From the IMG/VR virus record IMGVR_UViG_3300030202_002773, positions 17,846 through 81,845 of that record: 64,000 nt of DNA; one strand, 5' to 3'. The position numbers and the translations under genes are program-made. The stretch is from a virus. The notes beneath the pieces were generated by a model. The model saw only the letters and a list, made by a program, of their open reading frames with translations, did no database searches and had not been told where the DNA came from. Shown one piece after another: positions 36,456-60,050 of the stretch; position 1 is the first letter of the stretch, and each line of letters begins with the position of its first letter.

Positions 36456-37637
36456 TTAATTTAATTGTATTTTTATTCCAGTTAATTCCTCATTTATTTC
36501 ATAAGCTTTAGAGCTATGTACCCATAAAGCGTTTTTAGGGCAATTTTCAGGATTGCTTGCTTCACCATCTGTAAGACATATAAATCCTGAGTACTTATTT
36601 TTAGGATCATTGTAATGATCTACAACATCCTGAAAATCTGTACCACCTCTACCTTTAATTTCCCAATTTTTCTTAGGATCAAAATCAGATACATCTGTAA
36701 TCTCTGTGTCAAATTGTGCAACAGTAATTTGGTTACCAGTTTTATGCATATGTGCTAACTCGTGCATAAACTCTACTAACTCTTCACTGCTAACAGATCC
36801 TGATGTGTCAACGCCTACTAGTACGTGATTCTTATGCTTAATCTTAAGACCTGGATTAGCTGCGTAACGTTTGTTATCTTTACGTCTAAGCTTTTTAGTA
36901 TAGACTTTAGATGCATTGTTAACATAGCGTTTAAGAAAGGATTTCCAATTGAACTTAGGAGGCTCTATATGAAATAATCTTTCGATTATCTCTGCAAGTT
37001 CTCCAGGGATGGATCCACACTTCTTTTGGATCTCTTCTGCAGTCTGCTTCATCTGATGCTCATATTGCTTTTGTACTAACTTTTTCTCAGCTTCAGGTAA
37101 ATCACCAATTTCTTTCCATTCTTTATGACAGTATTGGCTATTACCATCCATTTGATCTAAGATTTTCTGAAGAGCTTCATTACATGATCCACCTTTACCG
37201 TCACAGGTATCATTAAGTATATCATAATACACTTTAGTACCTGCTTTTGGGTGTTTATGTATCTCAGTGCCTGGAAAAGAATGTAAAGTTAATCCGCCTT
37301 CTGGTAACATATGCTTATCAATATATTGGTTGATTTCTATATCTGCCGCAATATTAAAAAGCTTTTTATTAGGATATTTGTCTGCTAGTATAATGTGTCC
37401 AAAAGCTATATGTAGTAGCTCATGTTTTAGCAAACCGTGCTGATGGTCCTCACTTAGATCTCCAAAGAAATCTGGATTAATAACTAGTCTCATCCCAATG
37501 CCGTGTTTTCCTACACCTGCGGTAGCGCAACTCTTAGTGAACTCTTTTTGTAGTCCAATAAGAAAGATACCGTAGAAAGGCTCTGAAAATATCAATGTCT
37601 TAGATATTCTAGAGAGTTGATCTTGAACTGTTCTCAT
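36456..37637 (-). CDS. VWA-like metallopeptidase-type protein (partner of MoxR ATPase)
   Basis: The protein has 393 residues in two parts. The N-terminal part carries H72-E-L-L-H76-IAFGH81, an HExxHxxxxH zinc site, followed by 'NIAADIEINQYI'. This is the arrangement of the 'putative metallopeptidase domain' (DUF2201 N-terminal type) family. The C-terminal part is a VWA domain: D277-T-S-G-S281 is the metal-ion-dependent adhesion site, with 'AQFDTEITDV' and 'GRGGTDF' completing it. Such proteins form a unit with MoxR ATPases, and the MoxR gene follows by 11 bp. Whether it cuts protein is unknown; the zinc site looks intact. The start at 37637 follows an AACAATTAAAT leader. It is part of a GC-richer cassette that may have been acquired as a block. 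Confidence 0.88.
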   Translation of the reverse strand: MRTVQDQLSRISKTLIFSEPFYGIFLIGLQKEFTKSCATAGVGKHGIGMRLVINPDFFGDLSEDHQHGLLKHELLHIAFGHIILADKYPNKKLFNIAADIEINQYIDKHMLPEGGLTLHSFPGTEIHKHPKAGTKVYYDILNDTCDGKGGSCNEALQKILDQMDGNSQYCHKEWKEIGDLPEAEKKLVQKQYEHQMKQTAEEIQKKCGSIPGELAEIIERLFHIEPPKFNWKSFLKRYVNNASKVYTKKLRRKDNKRYAANPGLKIKHKNHVLVGVDTSGSVSSEELVEFMHELAHMHKTGNQITVAQFDTEITDVSDFDPKKNWEIKGRGGTDFQDVVDHYNDPKNKYSGFICLTDGEASNPENCPKNALWVHSSKAYEINEELTGIKIQLN

Positions 37638-37648
37638 ATTTAATTGTT

Positions 37649-38503
37649 TTAAAATATATACCTAATTGTGTTCCAAGGTATAATTTGATTATGTAGTTGT
37701 TTGAATTCTCGTATATACTCAGCTTTCATACCAAGTTTGTATCGTATATTTTCTCCTCCATACTGAGAGCGTTTAATTTCTTGCTTATCTAAAACCCACA
37801 AGTCTATTTCTGTTTCAGGGTGTTTCCCTAAGTTAACTGTGTGCTTCTTAAAGTTATGTGTGAGAAAAATACATTCTGATAATACTTTATCTTTGTTTTT
37901 TACATAAGTATTTACCAGATTAAATAAATCTTTATAATCTTCTAACCACCCATCATACACTATAATAGGGCTGTAATTAACGTGTACATCGTAACCAGCA
38001 TCAATAAATCTATCAATAGCTTTTAATCTATCTAATATTTTAGAAGTTTTAGGCTCATGTAAATCTGATTTATGCTGTGGCATTAAACTGAATCTAATGC
38101 GTATCTTACTTTGAGGGTTAAATGAAAGAAGGTTATTGTTGACATATTTAGTTGCAAAGCTGCCCATAGCCATGGGGTGATCTCTAAAGAACTCAAAGAT
38201 CTTTTCCCATTGATGGTGTTTAGCGTGCAATGCAAAGTCTTCGTTACAACTAATATCATATGTTGTAAAGTCTGCGTGTGTTTGATTAGGTTTATCTACA
38301 GGTGTGAAGAAAGCATGGTTATTTATAGCTGTTAATATATCTCCTGTATTAGTTGCTACATCAAGACCACTATCTTTATGTCTTTTCATGTAGCAATAAG
38401 AACAGTTATATAAACAACCATAGCCAAAACTTGGACTAATAAAATCTGTAGATCTACCTGAAGGCCTAATAAGCATAGACTTTCTAGTGATCTTTTTTAT
38501 CAT
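37649..38503 (-). CDS. Radical SAM protein of the spore photoproduct lyase type
   Basis: The protein has 284 residues. C30-x3-C34-x2-C37 in 'YGCLYNCSYCYMKR' binds the [4Fe-4S] cluster that cleaves S-adenosylmethionine. Downstream, 'IRIRFSLMPQHKSDLHEPKTS' (read in pieces), 'RLKAIDRFIDAGYDVHVNYSPII' and 'GWLEDYKDLF' follow the pattern of the SplB-like family (Arg/Ser strand, E-P-T/S, RL.A...l..aGY.V....PI). SplB repairs the spore photoproduct thymine dimer. A phage member may repair or modify thymine-containing DNA, but family members with other functions exist. It overlaps the zinc-ribbon gene by 4 bp and is followed by the VWA gene after 11 bp. The radical SAM call is firm; the lyase subfamily is likely. 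Confidence 0.8.
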   Translation of the reverse strand: MIKKITRKSMLIRPSGRSTDFISPSFGYGCLYNCSYCYMKRHKDSGLDVATNTGDILTAINNHAFFTPVDKPNQTHADFTTYDISCNEDFALHAKHHQWEKIFEFFRDHPMAMGSFATKYVNNNLLSFNPQSKIRIRFSLMPQHKSDLHEPKTSKILDRLKAIDRFIDAGYDVHVNYSPIIVYDGWLEDYKDLFNLVNTYVKNKDKVLSECIFLTHNFKKHTVNLGKHPETEIDLWVLDKQEIKRSQYGGENIRYKLGMKAEYIREFKQLHNQIIPWNTIRYIF

Positions 38504-52888: not shown

Positions 52889-52921
52889 TTTGGATTTATA
52901 AAAAAATAGTTTATATATTTG
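52889..52921 (+). promoter_or_regulatory. Near-consensus Bacteroidota promoter for the late block
   Basis: TTTG (52889-52892) and TATATTTG (52914-52921) match the -33 TTTG and -7 TAnnTTTG boxes with 21 bases between them, the normal spacing for the Bacteroidota housekeeping sigma factor. Transcription would begin about 10 bases before the GroES-like start codon. It drives the late block starting with that gene, apparently with host polymerase. Confidence 0.75.
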
Positions 52922-52939
52922 TAAAAAAATATATAGACT

Positions 52940-53209
52940 ATGAAATTTAAACCAAGCGGATCGTGGGTTGTCCTTCCAGACCCAGTAATTACAGAAACAG
53001 AATCAGGAATTATACTAGATGAAAAAACTGCTTTAGAAAACTCTAAGAGATCTAATGTATTAGAGGCATTAGCAGTTGGCCCTACTTGTCACTTTGTAGA
53101 AAAAGGAGATACTGTTATGGTAGATCCCAGATCAGAAGCTGCAAGAACAGAAATTGACGGACAAACTTATCTAATTATTTCAGAACATCAAATACTAGGA
53201 AAGTGGTAA
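52940..53209 (+). CDS. GroES-like co-chaperonin
   Basis: The protein has 89 residues, close to bacterial GroES (about 95). The order of elements fits: 'GSWVVLPDPVITETESGIIL' (the V-L-P-D-P strand and the mobile-loop S-G-I-I-L motif that binds GroEL), 'VLEALAVGPTCHFVEKGDTV' (xVxAVGPG...VxxGDxV), 'TYLIISEHQILG' (Y.ii.E.dIlG). It would cap host GroEL and alter its chamber to fold phage proteins, as T4 gp31 does. No GroEL gene is in the window. It is the first gene after the late promoter, so it is made before or with capsid proteins. Confidence 0.85.
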   Translation: MKFKPSGSWVVLPDPVITETESGIILDEKTALENSKRSNVLEALAVGPTCHFVEKGDTVMVDPRSEAARTEIDGQTYLIISEHQILGKW

Positions 53210-53909: not shown

Positions 53910-54040
53910 TGTTTTTTGGACTAGTCATGACTTTTTTTGAAGCAGATCCTTACGTTATAATTATAATTCAAGATAAAAACGGTAAATTAGTAAATATAAA
54001 AGTAGAAAACAATGAGCAAGATATATCCATCAGTATTTAA
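53909..54040 (+). CDS. Tiny protein, 43 aa
   Basis: It begins MFFGLVMTFFEADPYVIIII and ends in a charged tail. It starts in a TAATG overlap with the winged-helix gene and ends 29 bp inside the next one. A start at the second Met is possible. It may be membrane-associated. Confidence 0.35.
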   Translation: MFFGLVMTFFEADPYVIIIIQDKNGKLVNIKVENNEQDISISI

Positions 54041-54269
54041 AATGATAAGTAATTTTTCTAAAGAGTTAGGAACACACTTACTTAATGGTGCAGAAAATGT
54101 ATCAGAAAAAGATTACAAAGAAAGATTAGAAACATGTTTAATTTGCCCATCTTTAAAAAGAGATGCTATGAGATGTACTACGTGTGGGTGTAAACTAGAA
54201 CAAAAAGCAAAATGGAAAACTTCTGACTGTCCTGAAAAAAAATGGAAGCCTCAGTATGAAAAAAAATAA
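54012..54269 (+). CDS. Small zinc-binding protein, 85 aa
   Basis: The Cys pattern is 'CLICPSLKRD...CTTCGCKLEQKAKW...CPEKKW' over residues about 38-80. This is the CxxC...CxxCGC...CP..kW zinc module common in small proteins of many large phages. The first 35 residues are helical. Its function is unknown; it may bind protein or nucleic acid. Confidence 0.7.
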   Translation: MSKIYPSVFKMISNFSKELGTHLLNGAENVSEKDYKERLETCLICPSLKRDAMRCTTCGCKLEQKAKWKTSDCPEKKWKPQYEKK

Positions 54270-54477
54270 AAAAGAGATTATATATAGTTTAGCTAATAAA
54301 TATGATTTACCTTTGAAAAAAATAGAAGAAATTGTTAACTATCAATTTAAATATACAGCTAAAGTTATGAAAGAGGGTAAATTTGAAATTATACGTCTCC
54401 CATATTTTGGTAAATTCTCTGTAAATTCTAGTAGAGTAAAACATATAAACAAATTAAAAGATGAGTCTAAAGGATGA
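54256..54477 (+). CDS. IHF/HU-like DNA-bending protein, short form
   Basis: The protein has 73 residues (family about 90-100). 'MKKNKKEIIYSLANKYDLPL' and 'IVNYQFKYTAKVMKEGKFEI' match the helix-turn-helix dimer body of HU/IHF, and 'IRLPYFGKFSV' matches the I.GFG.F strand that begins the DNA arms. The arm itself looks shortened. A gene for an IHF-like subunit beside the structural genes is typical of crAss-like phages. It may organise DNA for packaging or late transcription. Confidence 0.75.
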   Translation: MKKNKKEIIYSLANKYDLPLKKIEEIVNYQFKYTAKVMKEGKFEIIRLPYFGKFSVNSSRVKHINKLKDESKG

Positions 54478-54982
54478 TTTAATATATATAGATGATGATA
54501 AAGCTATACCTAGTGTATATGCACTATCTATACCAGAATTTAAAAAATTAAATACAGATGAACTTTCATTTGTATATTTTATGATAGATCATAGATCTCC
54601 TTTTTCAGTTTATGAATTAAATCAGCGTCAAATTGAAGTAAAAAATAATATATTTGGAGAAAAAAAGAAATGGACTCCTTCTGCAGAAGTATTAGGGGCA
54701 TGTGATAAATATGAAAAATTAATAGAAACTTCAGCAGTAAGATTATTAAAGGCTGCTAGAGAATCTATAATAAAATTAGAAAAATATTTTAGAGATATAG
54801 ATTTACATTTAATGGATGATAATGGTAAGCCTATATTTCATGCAAAAGATTTAATAGCTAATCTATCTAATATGGGTAAAGTTGTAGATGGATTAACTAG
54901 GTTAGAAGATATAGTTAAAAAAGAAGAACAGGCCGCTAATTCAAATAGAGGTGGAGTTGAAGTAAATAAATACAGTATGTAA
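54461..54982 (+). CDS. Probable small terminase subunit
   Basis: The protein has 173 residues and is helical. Segments 'HRSPFSVYELNQRQIEVKNN', 'AVRLLKAARESIIKLEKYFR', 'AKDLIANLSNMGKVVDGLTR' and 'EDIVKKEEQAANSNRGG' match the style of small terminase-like proteins that precede the large terminase in Bacteroidota podoviruses. It lies one gene before the large terminase. An HTH is not obvious, so the call rests on context and pattern. Confidence 0.5.
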   Translation: MSLKDDLIYIDDDKAIPSVYALSIPEFKKLNTDELSFVYFMIDHRSPFSVYELNQRQIEVKNNIFGEKKKWTPSAEVLGACDKYEKLIETSAVRLLKAARESIIKLEKYFRDIDLHLMDDNGKPIFHAKDLIANLSNMGKVVDGLTRLEDIVKKEEQAANSNRGGVEVNKYSM

Positions 54983-55257
54983 TGGATTTTTTAGAAGATT
55001 ATCAAATATATGATGAAGCAATGCAAAATGCTTATGCTATTATTACTAGGAGAAAAACTTTAGATGACATTTATAATGATTTTGAAAAAGAAGGTAAATT
55101 TGATAAATTTTATTTACCTTTTGATCCTATTAATGAGGATGGAAGATCTGCAGATATAATAGATATGGTAATAGACTATTATACAGGAACAGAAGAATAT
55201 GAAAAATGTGCAGAACTTTTAAAAATTAAAGATAAATGTCAAAGTTTAGAGATATAA
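54982..55257 (+). CDS. Small late protein, 91 aa
   Basis: The protein is acidic and Tyr-rich, e.g. 'MDFLEDYQIYDEAMQNAYAI' and 'DIIDMVIDYYTGTEEYEKCA', with a helical repeat look. It starts in a TAATG overlap with the preceding gene and ends 22 bp inside the terminase gene. No family is recognised. Confidence 0.5.
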   Translation: MDFLEDYQIYDEAMQNAYAIITRRKTLDDIYNDFEKEGKFDKFYLPFDPINEDGRSADIIDMVIDYYTGTEEYEKCAELLKIKDKCQSLEI

Positions 55258-57206
55258 ATAGAATAAGACCAGCAGCACTTTCATTTTTAGAGCACGGATA
55301 CTATACAAGAGCACTTCCTGGAACTAAAGAATATTATGATTTTTGGGATGAAGAAAAAAAACGATGCCTTTATGGATATACAATAGATGAATTACATGTT
55401 ACTGGATTTCATTATTTTTATTTAAATTATTGTCCTATTGATAGGGCTATAGATGAAATATTACCAGATGGTACTACCCAATCTAGACGTGAAAGGTCTT
55501 TTCCAAGATTTTATGATGGAGATTGGGATTATTTTCAAGAAATAGACAAAGCTAGAGCAGATAATAAACATATGATTGTTCTTAAAGCGCGGAGAAAAGG
55601 ATATTCATACAAAGCAGGATCAATGCTTGCTCGTAACTACTTTTTTGTAAAAAATTCTAAAAACTTTGTATTTGCATCACAAAAAGAATACTTAATTGGA
55701 GATGGACTATTATCTAAAGCGTGGGAATTTCTATCTTTTATAGATGATCATACTGCATGGGCTCAACCTAGATTAAAAGATAGAGAAATGCATAAAATGT
55801 CTGGATATAAGAAAAAAGTAAATGGATTAGAGATAGAAATGGGTATGAAATCTCAAATTATGGGAGTAAGTCTTAAAGATGCGCCTGATAAAGTAAGGGG
55901 TAAGGCAGGAGAGTTAGTATTCTTTGAAGAAGCAGGTTCTTTCCCAGGATTATTAAAAGCTTGGGAGGTAACAATGCCAACAATGAGGCAAGGAGCAAAA
56001 ACATTAGGAATGATGATTGCATTTGGGACTGGAGGTACAGAAGGTGCTGATTTTGAAGCAATGGAAGAGATATTTTATAATCCTGCAGCATATGATTGTA
56101 TGGATTATGAAAATGTATGGGATGAAGGAGCTTTTGGTACTAGATGTGGGTATTTTATTCCTATACAAACTAATTTAGATGGGTTTATAGACGATCAAGG
56201 TAATTCTATAAAAGAAAAAGCTACAGAATACGAAAAAGAAATGAGAGAAAAGAAAAAAGGTGCTGCAGATGCTAAATCTTTAGATCAATATATAGCAGAG
56301 CATCCTTTTTCTCCTCAAGAAGCTACTTTACAAGTAACAGCTAATCTATTTGATGTAGCTTCTTTGCAAGAACAGTATAATATTGTTAAAGCTAGGGGTC
56401 TTCAGTCTATTGGTACAGTTGGAAGATTATATCACAACTCTAAAGGTGAAATAAAATTTACAATAGATGGAGATTTAAAACAGATAACAAAATTTCCTCA
56501 TAGAAAAGATGATGATAAAACAGGAGCTGTAGTTATATATGAAGCACCTTATAAAAATCAAAAACAACAAATTCCTTTAAATATGTATGTAATATGCCAT
56601 GACCCTTATGGACAAAATCAATCTGCAGATTCTACATCTTTAGGAGCAGCTTATGTACTAAAACGACCTAATAATTTATCTCATCCAGATGATATTATTG
56701 TAGCATCTTATGTAGGAAGACCTAAAACACAAGATGATTATAATAGAAATCTATTTTTACTAGCAGATTATTATGGATGTAAGATAGGATTTGAGAATGA
56801 TCGTGGTGAAGTTATAGCATACGCTAAAAGATATAGAAAGTTAAATAAATTACAGGAAGAGTTTGAAATGCTAGATAAAAGAGAACTTAGAAGTAAAACT
56901 GTAAAACGTCAATATGGTATGCATATGACAGATGCAAGAAAGCGTCAAGGTGAAATATATATAAGAGATTGGTTAAATACTGTTAGAAATACTGATGAAA
57001 ATGGAAAACAATTACTAAATTTGCATAAAATATATGATCCTGCATTATTAACAGAGTTAATTAAATTTAATCATACAGGTAACTTTGATAGAGTTATGGC
57101 GTTTATGATTGGAATGTACCACACAAGAGAATTATACAATGCAGAAGTTAAAGATATATTAGAAGACAGAGCTACAGATAAATGGTTCGATCAAAATTAT
57201 TATTAA
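55236..57206 (+). CDS. terL: Large terminase subunit
   Basis: The protein has 656 residues. The ATPase domain has a Walker A-like 'IVLKARRKGYSYKAGSM' (about 113-129) and Walker B with catalytic Glu 'LVFFEEAGSFPG' (about 225-236). The nuclease domain shows 'YVICHDPYGQNQSADSTSLG' (first Asp near 456) and 'GCKIGFENDRGEVIAYAKRY', the second acidic site. It packages concatemeric DNA through the portal and cuts it. Its start overlaps the preceding gene by 22 bp. Confidence 0.9.
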   Translation: MSKFRDINRIRPAALSFLEHGYYTRALPGTKEYYDFWDEEKKRCLYGYTIDELHVTGFHYFYLNYCPIDRAIDEILPDGTTQSRRERSFPRFYDGDWDYFQEIDKARADNKHMIVLKARRKGYSYKAGSMLARNYFFVKNSKNFVFASQKEYLIGDGLLSKAWEFLSFIDDHTAWAQPRLKDREMHKMSGYKKKVNGLEIEMGMKSQIMGVSLKDAPDKVRGKAGELVFFEEAGSFPGLLKAWEVTMPTMRQGAKTLGMMIAFGTGGTEGADFEAMEEIFYNPAAYDCMDYENVWDEGAFGTRCGYFIPIQTNLDGFIDDQGNSIKEKATEYEKEMREKKKGAADAKSLDQYIAEHPFSPQEATLQVTANLFDVASLQEQYNIVKARGLQSIGTVGRLYHNSKGEIKFTIDGDLKQITKFPHRKDDDKTGAVVIYEAPYKNQKQQIPLNMYVICHDPYGQNQSADSTSLGAAYVLKRPNNLSHPDDIIVASYVGRPKTQDDYNRNLFLLADYYGCKIGFENDRGEVIAYAKRYRKLNKLQEEFEMLDKRELRSKTVKRQYGMHMTDARKRQGEIYIRDWLNTVRNTDENGKQLLNLHKIYDPALLTELIKFNHTGNFDRVMAFMIGMYHTRELYNAEVKDILEDRATDKWFDQNYY

Positions 57207-57545
57207 ATGGAAAAATGTAAAGATAAAGAACCTTATAACCCTCTGCCGGAGTACTTAGCAATAGGACCATCAGACATTCATGGAGCAGGGATCCTAGCAC
57301 AAGAAGATATTCCGGGAGAGGTAGTTATAGGTATAACACATGTATATGATCCAAATTTTCAACATAATTATATTAGAACACCTTTAGGAGGATTTATAAA
57401 TCATTCTGATGTACCTAATTGTGAATTAATAGAAGACGAAGGAGATGATGATTATAAAAGATTAAAAACATTGAAAAAAATAGAGCAGGGAGAAGAATTA
57501 ACATTAAAGTATAGTTTATATGATATATGCGATTATCTTGAATGA
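57207..57545 (+). CDS. SET-domain protein (putative lysine methyltransferase)
   Basis: The protein has 112 residues, a minimal SET domain. The three hallmark blocks are present in order: 'SDIHGAGILAQEDIPGEVVI' (residues 22-41; the G-x-G strand and 'I..GE.V'), N65-H66-S67-x-x-P70-N71-C72 (the NHSCxPN-type S-adenosylmethionine site), and 'KIEQGEELTLKYSLYD' (91-106; GEELt.dY). There is no Cys-rich post-SET part. It starts directly after the large terminase stop and precedes the portal promoter. It may methylate a virion protein or a host protein. The fold assignment is firm; activity is not proven. Confidence 0.82.
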   Translation: MEKCKDKEPYNPLPEYLAIGPSDIHGAGILAQEDIPGEVVIGITHVYDPNFQHNYIRTPLGGFINHSDVPNCELIEDEGDDDYKRLKTLKKIEQGEELTLKYSLYDICDYLE

Positions 57546-57605
57546 TATATTTATAATGTATATCTATAAATATTTTAATGTAGAGTAAAGTAATAAAAAT
57601 TTAAT

Positions 57606-57613
57606 TAAATTTG
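57606..57613 (+). promoter_or_regulatory. -7 box TAAATTTG before the portal gene
   Basis: TAAATTTG matches TAnnTTTG and stands 7 bp before the portal ATG, so the message would have almost no leader if this start codon is used. A good -33 TTTG is missing. The 75-bp gap 57546-57620 holds no gene. Confidence 0.5.
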
Positions 57614-57620
57614 TCAGATT

Positions 57621-60050
57621 ATGGGGTATGATAAAATTCCTAGGCAGAAAATGCCTATTAGCAAAAAAACAAAAAAATGGGGAGAAGAATGTGTTGAAGC
57701 ATTTATAGATCTCTCTGATTCTGGTTCAGGATATTCACAAAGAAAAGATGAACTTAAGATATTATATGATTACTATAATGGTATAATTGATGAGGCGGAT
57801 TATAAATACGTATTGAAACCTTACGGGAAATCTCGTAAGAACTTTCCTTCAGAAATGCGTAATTACCCCATTATCAAACCCATAATTGATCTTCTTCTAG
57901 GGGAAAAATCTAAAAGACCTCTCAATTATACCGTTACAGTACAAAATTCAGATACAACATCTGTAAAAGAACAAGCTAAAAGTGAAGCAATCTTTATGAA
58001 TCTTCAAATGCATTTTATGCAAGCTATTCAAAATCAAGGTCAAGATATGGGGATGAGTCCAGAGCAGCAACAACAAGAAAACCCAATGCCTAAGCATATA
58101 GCGGAAATGTTTGAGACTAGTTATGTAGATCAAAGAGCTATTTTAGGACAAAAAGCTTTAAATTTTATTTTTCAAGATCAAGAAATATATGATAAAGTAC
58201 AAAAAGCATGGTTTCATTATTTAGTTAGTGGAGAAGCTTATACACATAGAGGAGTTAGAAATGGTGAACCTTTTTATGAAGTACTTAATCCAATAGATGT
58301 AGATTATGATTTAGATCCAGATTTAGAGTTTGTAGAAGATGGAGACTGGGCTTTAACTAGAAAATATGTACATGCATCTACTGTTATAGATCATTATTAT
58401 GATTCTTTATCTGAACAACAGGTGCTAGAACTTGAAGAACCTAGACATTCTGAAGCAGATGTTTCTTTTTTATATGCGCATTCGTCTAATAAAGATGCTA
58501 ATGCTTTTAGAAATAGATTAGTAGAAGTCATAAACGTTTATTGGAAATCTAGAAAAAGAATAGGATTTTTAACTTATTTAGATCCTCAAACTGGATCTAT
58601 AGAAGAACAAGAAGTTGCAGATGGATTTAGATTACCTAAAGAATTAAAAGAACAAGGAGCTACTCTTGAGTGGAAATGGGTTAATGAAGTGTGGGAAGGA
58701 ACAAGAATAGATGGTAGAGTATATATAAATATAAATCCTATATCAAATCAAAGACTATCTTTAGATAATCCTTCTAAATGTAAACTTCCTATTAATGGTA
58801 GAAGATACTCAGATATTAATTCTTCTAATATTTCACTAGTTAAACTTGGTATACCGTATCAATTAAATTACAATATTTATAAATATAGATTAGAATTATC
58901 TATTGCAAAATCAAAAGATATTATTGCTCAATTTGATATTAACATGATTCCTAAAAAATGGGATATGGATAAATTTATGCATTATGTTGAAGGAACAGGA
59001 ATTGCTTGGGTAGATTATAATAAAGAAGGTATTCAATTAAATCCTCAACATCAAGCTGTAATGGATATGTCTATTAAAACTATTCAACAATATGTTGCTT
59101 TATTAGAATCTATTTTAGTAGAATGGGAAAAGATATCAGGAGTAAGTAGACAAAGACAAGGTGAAATTGGAGCTTACGAAGGTAAAGCATCTTCTCAACA
59201 AGCTATCTTACAATCATCACATATTACTGAAGATTTGTTTAGAAAATTTGAAAGAATGGAACAAAGAGACTTTCAAGCATTATTAGATTATTCTAAAGAA
59301 GCATGGTTAACTGGTAAAAGAGGAACATATGTAATGCCTGACGGTACAACTGATTTTTTAGATATAGATAGTATGGGACATATGGAAACTAACTATGGAA
59401 TATTTGTTTCTGATGCTGGTAAAGATGCAGAAAAACTACAAAATATTAAAGGATTAACTCAAGCTATGATGCAAAACGGTGCTAAACCTGGAGACATAGC
59501 AGAAATGTTAGATTCAGATAGTTTTACAGAAATTAAAAAGAATCTTAAAAAAGCTGATAAAGCTTCTGCTGAATTAGAACAAGCTCAACAACAAGCTCAA
59601 GCTGAAGCTCAACAACAAATGCAACAGATGGAAGCTATGAAATTAGAAGCACAAAATATTGAAAATGAAAAAGAAAGACAAAAAGATATTGAAATAGCTT
59701 TAATTAATGCTGAATCTAAACAGCAAGCATCAACAGGTACTGAATCTTTACAACTACAAAAAATGATTCAAGATTTTGAACTTAAAGATAAAGAGTTAGA
59801 ACTTAAGGAAAGAGAATTAATAGAAAGATCTAGAGGTGATCAATCTAAAGAGCAAATAAGTAGAGAGGCAAACGAAATATCTAGAGAAGCAAATGAAATG
59901 AAAAGAGCTAGTGATATAGAAAGTAATGCATCTAAAAGAGAAGGTGAATATATTAAAAGGGATACAGCAAATAGGGATATTAGAGCAAAAAAAGATATAG
60001 CAGATAAACAAGCAAAAGCAAAATCTAAAGATGCCAACAAATCAAATTAG
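57621..60050 (+). CDS. Portal protein
   Basis: The protein has 809 residues. The portal-type core includes 'NYPIIKPIIDLLLGEKSKRP', 'YLVSGEAYTHRGVRNGEPFY' (in pieces), 'NPIDVDYDLDPDLEFVEDGD' and 'LYKYRLELS'-like helices. 'VSRQRQGEIGAYEGKASSQQ' resembles the loop before the tunnel helix. The last about 180 residues are a Gln/Glu/Lys-rich coiled coil. Twelve copies should form the DNA gate. Start alternatives: Met at 57651 if the box at 57606 is a real -7 element. It overlaps the next gene by 20 bp. Confidence 0.85.
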   Translation: MGYDKIPRQKMPISKKTKKWGEECVEAFIDLSDSGSGYSQRKDELKILYDYYNGIIDEADYKYVLKPYGKSRKNFPSEMRNYPIIKPIIDLLLGEKSKRPLNYTVTVQNSDTTSVKEQAKSEAIFMNLQMHFMQAIQNQGQDMGMSPEQQQQENPMPKHIAEMFETSYVDQRAILGQKALNFIFQDQEIYDKVQKAWFHYLVSGEAYTHRGVRNGEPFYEVLNPIDVDYDLDPDLEFVEDGDWALTRKYVHASTVIDHYYDSLSEQQVLELEEPRHSEADVSFLYAHSSNKDANAFRNRLVEVINVYWKSRKRIGFLTYLDPQTGSIEEQEVADGFRLPKELKEQGATLEWKWVNEVWEGTRIDGRVYININPISNQRLSLDNPSKCKLPINGRRYSDINSSNISLVKLGIPYQLNYNIYKYRLELSIAKSKDIIAQFDINMIPKKWDMDKFMHYVEGTGIAWVDYNKEGIQLNPQHQAVMDMSIKTIQQYVALLESILVEWEKISGVSRQRQGEIGAYEGKASSQQAILQSSHITEDLFRKFERMEQRDFQALLDYSKEAWLTGKRGTYVMPDGTTDFLDIDSMGHMETNYGIFVSDAGKDAEKLQNIKGLTQAMMQNGAKPGDIAEMLDSDSFTEIKKNLKKADKASAELEQAQQQAQAEAQQQMQQMEAMKLEAQNIENEKERQKDIEIALINAESKQQASTGTESLQLQKMIQDFELKDKELELKERELIERSRGDQSKEQISREANEISREANEMKRASDIESNASKREGEYIKRDTANRDIRAKKDIADKQAKAKSKDANKSN

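Follow-up and report, generated by a model that had tools for sequence, protein, structure and literature searches.

Why would a bacteriophage keep a gene for a SET-domain protein between the genes for its terminase and its portal protein? The question arises from a 64,000-nucleotide stretch (the window) that forms a portion of an 81,845-base virus record in IMG/VR. The phage is a member of a marine crAss-like clade; the nearest match of its large terminase subunit (TerL) is to gut crAss-like phages, at about 41%. An original prediction, made from the nucleotide sequence, recognized a SET-domain methyltransferase gene and took its position to mean that a capsid, portal or terminase lysine, or else a host DNA-binding protein, could be the substrate. 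Here we ask what the protein is, how firmly its gene is tied to the packaging genes and which substrate is then likely.

The gene, its predicted fold and its active site

The open reading frame (57207..57545, + strand) encodes a compact SET-domain protein of 112 aa, a putative protein-lysine methyltransferase. It is complete, with an ATG that abuts the TerL stop codon (TAAATG) and a TGA stop of its own. The protein matches the Pfam SET family (PF00856; E = 5.2e-9, 36.9 bits against a curated cut-off of 22.4), as do all 18 members of a homologue alignment (A1). It also matches essentially the whole of PHROG 28741 (E = 5.2e-23; protein residues 10-109 on profile positions 3-100 of 100), a family labelled "unknown function"; its SET assignment and its distribution are added by the present analysis. 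An NCBIfam model of a Legionella SET effector gave a weak, sub-threshold match, which is no evidence of kinship beyond the SET domain.

The predicted location was borne out: TerL lies directly upstream (55236..57206, +; phrog_6681, 2e-136), and the portal gene lies downstream (57621..60050, +; phrog_6547, 6e-124). SET closes a run of genes opened by a GroES-like co-chaperonin (52940..53209, +; PF00166, 5e-6; phrog_3188, 1e-11). Between GroES and TerL, all on the + strand, are a DUF6171 protein found by profile search (54012..54269), an HU/IHF-like DNA-binding protein that is a candidate substrate (54256..54477; PF00216, 1.5e-6), a 173-aa gene (54461..54982; synteny and a weak phrog_16390 profile match) and a 91-aa gene placed by synteny (54982..55257). 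Median dN/dS (Nei-Gojobori) is 0.158 for SET, compared with 0.086 for TerL, 0.197 for the portal gene and a range of 0.17-0.39 for the rest of the run. SET is thus under purifying selection and maintained for its protein. Elsewhere in the window, on the opposite strand, a spore photoproduct lyase-like protein (37649-38503, -; PF20903, 3.8e-26) is encoded next to a metallopeptidase and VWA-like protein (DUF2201_N / DUF2201; 36456-37637, -).

A promoter-like site of Bacteroidota type, TTTG-N21-TATATTTG, precedes GroES (motif match, 52889..52921, +); the window holds seven matches to such promoters against 3.45 expected, a count that is only suggestive. Downstream of SET lies an intergenic portal leader (57546..57620, +), which, in a comparison of junctions, persists whether or not SET is present. 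Shortly before the portal start codon it carries TAAATTTG, which we infer to be a Bacteroidota-type -7 box. This promoter-like box (TAnnTTTG) ends a few bases 5' of the ATG, and a portal mRNA started from it might have almost no leader. Given its fixed slot ahead of this leader, SET would probably be the last gene of a GroES-HU-TerL transcript.

An AlphaFold2 model built on an alignment of 73 compact SET family members, drawn from viral and bacterial contigs, has the SET (beta-clip) fold (mean pLDDT 87.2, pTM 0.75); a single-sequence model was unusable (pLDDT 35). The PDB matches listed for the model (Foldseek, VIA-align) are all SET or PR/SET domains. The best by Z score is 3kma (Z = 11.7, rmsd 2.4 Å, 90 residues), the structure of vSET. 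vSET is protein A612L of Paramecium bursaria chlorella virus 1 (PBCV-1), an H3K27 methyltransferase.

The GxG, NHxxxxN and ExL motifs and the catalytic Tyr, which we tested as marks of an active SET lysine methyltransferase, are all present. They fall in the AdoMet-binding motif G26-A27-G28 (57282..57290, +), in the family signature RTPLGGFxNHSxxPNC (R57-C72; 57375..57422, +) and in GEELTLKY (G95-Y102; 57489..57512, +), which holds E97 and the catalytic Tyr102. Eight residues (G28, H45, R57, N65, H66, N71, E97 and Y102) are invariant in the 73 sequences, as are G61 and F63 of the signature; G26 is kept in 71. The original prediction had made itself dependent on conservation of the active-site Tyr and Asn, and Tyr102 and N65 are kept in every member (73/73). 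Homologues were collected by a scan in which either of two patterns sufficed (TPLGGF[IVM]N or [GT]EEL[TF]L[KN]Y), and the stretches that these patterns cover are conserved partly by construction. Since the first pattern does not contain Tyr102, its occurrence in loci found by that pattern is independent evidence.

The original prediction also held that all SET blocks are present in 112 residues. That is right for GAG (26-28), NHSxxPNC (65-72) and GEELTLKY (95-102), but a SET-I-like region is largely absent. The spacing from GxG to NH is 34-41 residues across the compact family, versus 57 in an alternative phage SET described below, a shortness that leaves almost no room for SET-I; in its place the model shows just one short helix (59-63). 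The post-SET Cys cluster is absent as well. In most SET domains a SET-I insert of variable length is present, helps to form the substrate groove and shapes substrate choice. Because the AdoMet-site and catalytic residues are conserved, lysine methylation is the best guess for the activity of this predicted enzyme. Action on a protein lysine is not assured, since in the model SET-I is nearly missing. Judged by its length, the protein may be one of the smallest functional SET domains.

Turnover at the TerL-portal junction and the likely substrate

Were SET indispensable for packaging or for virion maturation, it should be present in every close relative with the same packaging genes, and some of them lack it. 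We surveyed fetched loci with a complete TerL and a visible portal gene. The order TerL-SET-portal occurs in 116 locus records and SET is absent from the junction in 13, where these counts refer to locus records rather than independent phages, some contigs having been fetched repeatedly. In this survey, which the original prediction had called for, most members keep the gene in its slot, yet its presence is facultative. The 13 SET-less records have TerLs that are 86-88% identical, and their junctions are clean: the 80-90 nt portal leader that elsewhere comes after SET begins right behind TerL. Mapping SET presence onto a tree of 89 distinct TerL sequences takes a minimum of five changes, and the SET-less lineages are nested within SET-bearing groups. 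The tree counts do not separate gain from loss, although five losses would explain them most simply. Two SET-less contigs, of 30 and 21 kb, have no SET in any part that is visible; metagenomic contigs are fragments, and in most SET-less genomes a SET gene could lie elsewhere.

In one lineage, compact SET has been replaced by a second type. Three SET-less contigs that show both TerL and portal (L232, L240 and L243) carry a different SET of 117 aa directly upstream of the GroES-like gene, and its nearest PDB match is vSET (3.5e-6). None of the 50 SET-bearing locus records with the region upstream of GroES in view has this alternative SET, and four other SET-less contigs (L218, L230, L244 and L246) show neither type. 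Because the three contigs belong to one clade or its near relatives, the replacement probably happened only once. Locus L249:1084-1434, like L251-L256, shows this arrangement, a vSET-like SET immediately ahead of the phage GroES in a subclade without the compact SET.

We also searched for the trace that a methylated lysine might leave in the phage's own proteins. Between SET-bearing and SET-less relatives, no conserved lysine is lost in gp110, the DUF6171 protein, HU, the 173-aa and 91-aa proteins or portal. TerL Lys5 gave the sole SET-tracking signal among the seven neighbour proteins compared, and a weak one.

These data bear on the possibility that the substrate of SET is one of the phage's own virion or packaging proteins (portal, capsid, terminase, HU-like or GroES-like), whose methylation would tune assembly or DNA condensation. 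The fixed slot in 116 locus records and the strong purifying selection speak for such a target, the run also includes HU-like and GroES-like genes, and the fact that most clade members keep SET beside packaging genes could reflect a packaging role. There is also a precedent in archaea, where Go1-SET methylates the chromatin protein MC1-alpha (PMC3980110). Against it stand the five or more changes in presence, in which SET is cleanly missing while its neighbours are intact, the lack of a SET-tracking Lys column in portal, HU and four other genes, and the homologues of P-SSM7 and other phages, which lie apart from the packaging genes. We regard a phage-protein substrate as rather unlikely, though it is the strongest of the alternatives. 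The repeated absence of SET and the lack of clear lysine tracking make an essential packaging role unlikely, and the virion or packaging substrate that the original prediction had read from gene position is not supported by these observations.

We favor the reading, at a probability of about 60%, that this is a mobile accessory SET-fold protein-lysine methyltransferase whose substrate is a host protein or a general intracellular one. The product would be a minimal AdoMet-dependent enzyme encoded by a moron-like gene, held in the crAss-like clade in a fixed slot between the TerL stop codon and the portal leader. Its likely target would be a lysine in a protein of the host, or in some general intracellular protein common to many hosts, such as a DNA-binding or translation protein, and methylation there would favor infection or blunt a host response. 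It is the turnover of the gene that leads us, with moderate confidence, to such a target rather than to the packaging machinery.

Spread of the family and alternative chemistries

The compact family extends well beyond this clade. At least 585 candidate loci were confirmed in IMG/VR, and some cultivated phages contain annotated SETs, so describing SET enzymes as known mainly from eukaryotes and a few bacteria undersells phages. Phages whose TerL is just 27-29% identical to that of the window (L067, L099, L101, L103 and L104) have SETs 66-75% identical to the window SET, which indicates that the gene moved horizontally between distant phages. None of eight annotated phage records with a SET homologue is crAss-like. 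The homologue lies between nrdB and talC in P-SSM7, beside a gp25-like gene in P-RSM6 and next to an "AAA protein" gene in Kolga. In Rhodoferax phage P26218, a protein annotated as tail fibre-like has a C-terminal SET-like part (L079:3476-4351; 29% identity over 101 residues, E = 6e-3).

Bacteria have copies too. Of 299 Flavobacteriaceae genomes sampled, 14 (~5%) have a homologue, as do 5 of 98 genomes from the family of a Porticoccaceae genome, several of the latter hits reading through a stop codon in the search frame. A marine Flavobacteriaceae copy sits within an apparent arginine-biosynthesis operon, argC-SET-proC-argD-argF (L158, L161 and L163; the proC neighbor being proC-like). Other copies adjoin fabB in Porticoccaceae and a thiolase or acyl-CoA thioesterase gene in Flavobacteriaceae. 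We found no common functional partner among the neighbors of the bacterial copies, and the SET-family tree, at 112 columns, is too poorly resolved to tell a phage-first from a bacteria-first history.

Such metabolic surroundings would suit a SET-fold AdoMet enzyme that modifies a small molecule or another residue, with its short GxG-to-NH segment and invariant His45 and Arg57 adapted to that end. The family-wide reduction of SET-I and the family-specific H45 and RTPLGGF point the same way. All canonical catalytic residues are kept, however, and in one subclade a more conventional, vSET-like SET stands in for the compact one, which would be odd if the two are functional equivalents; we consider non-lysine chemistry improbable. 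A catalytically dead or structural SET-like protein that binds AdoMet or a peptide, for which the SET-like stretch of the Rhodoferax phage protein might be cited, is very improbable, as Tyr102, E97 and N65/H66 would not be expected to stay invariant in 73 divergent sequences, with Tyr102 part of just one of the two search patterns.

Relation to known SET proteins

The closest structural counterpart, vSET, is likewise a minimal viral SET without flanking domains, with the same layout of GxG, NH and catalytic Tyr. The two are about 21% identical; the compact family differs in its RTPLGGF and shortened GxG-to-NH segment, its host is a bacterium and its enzyme class is read, with good support, from sequence and predicted fold. 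Phage SETs have been annotated before, in uncultured Caudovirales entries and in Stenotrophomonas phages Moby and Ps15. The small SET proteins of Moby and Ps15 matched the alternative SET query, at about 30% identity, rather than the compact SET of the window, and they come from other phages and another genomic position. Prokaryotic SET methyltransferases are also known from Go1-SET and from bacterial effectors (RomA/LegAS4, BaSET and chlamydial SET). These were characterized on histones or MC1-alpha and several are larger or secreted, whereas the phage protein consists of the SET domain alone and shows no sign of secretion.

In a literature search with most subscription journals outside its reach, we found no functional study of a phage SET (crAss-like, cyanophage or capsid lysine methylation) and, in the literature covered, no account of a phage enzyme that methylates protein lysines. 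A "set" match in the crAss-like literature referred to "C2-set" immunoglobulin domains. We appear to be the first to describe the compact RTPLGGFxNHS family, its abundance in viruses, its comings and goings between TerL and portal and its substitution by a different type of SET.

Bacteria lack histones. The spread of the compact family, its purifying selection, its distant transfer and its one replacement suggest that protein lysine methylation benefits a phage that infects them all the same. More tentatively, marine phages might share a widespread, exchangeable protein-methylation weapon, in which a minimal SET methylates a conserved host protein lysine and thereby overcomes defence or gains control of the cell; one lineage would have swapped its SET subtype, and the bacterial copies could be native or protective. 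Compact SET is a small, easily tested enzyme, and close phage relatives provide natural pairs with and without it. It looks like a useful accessory tool of these phages, not like a part of the machinery that assembles the virus particle.
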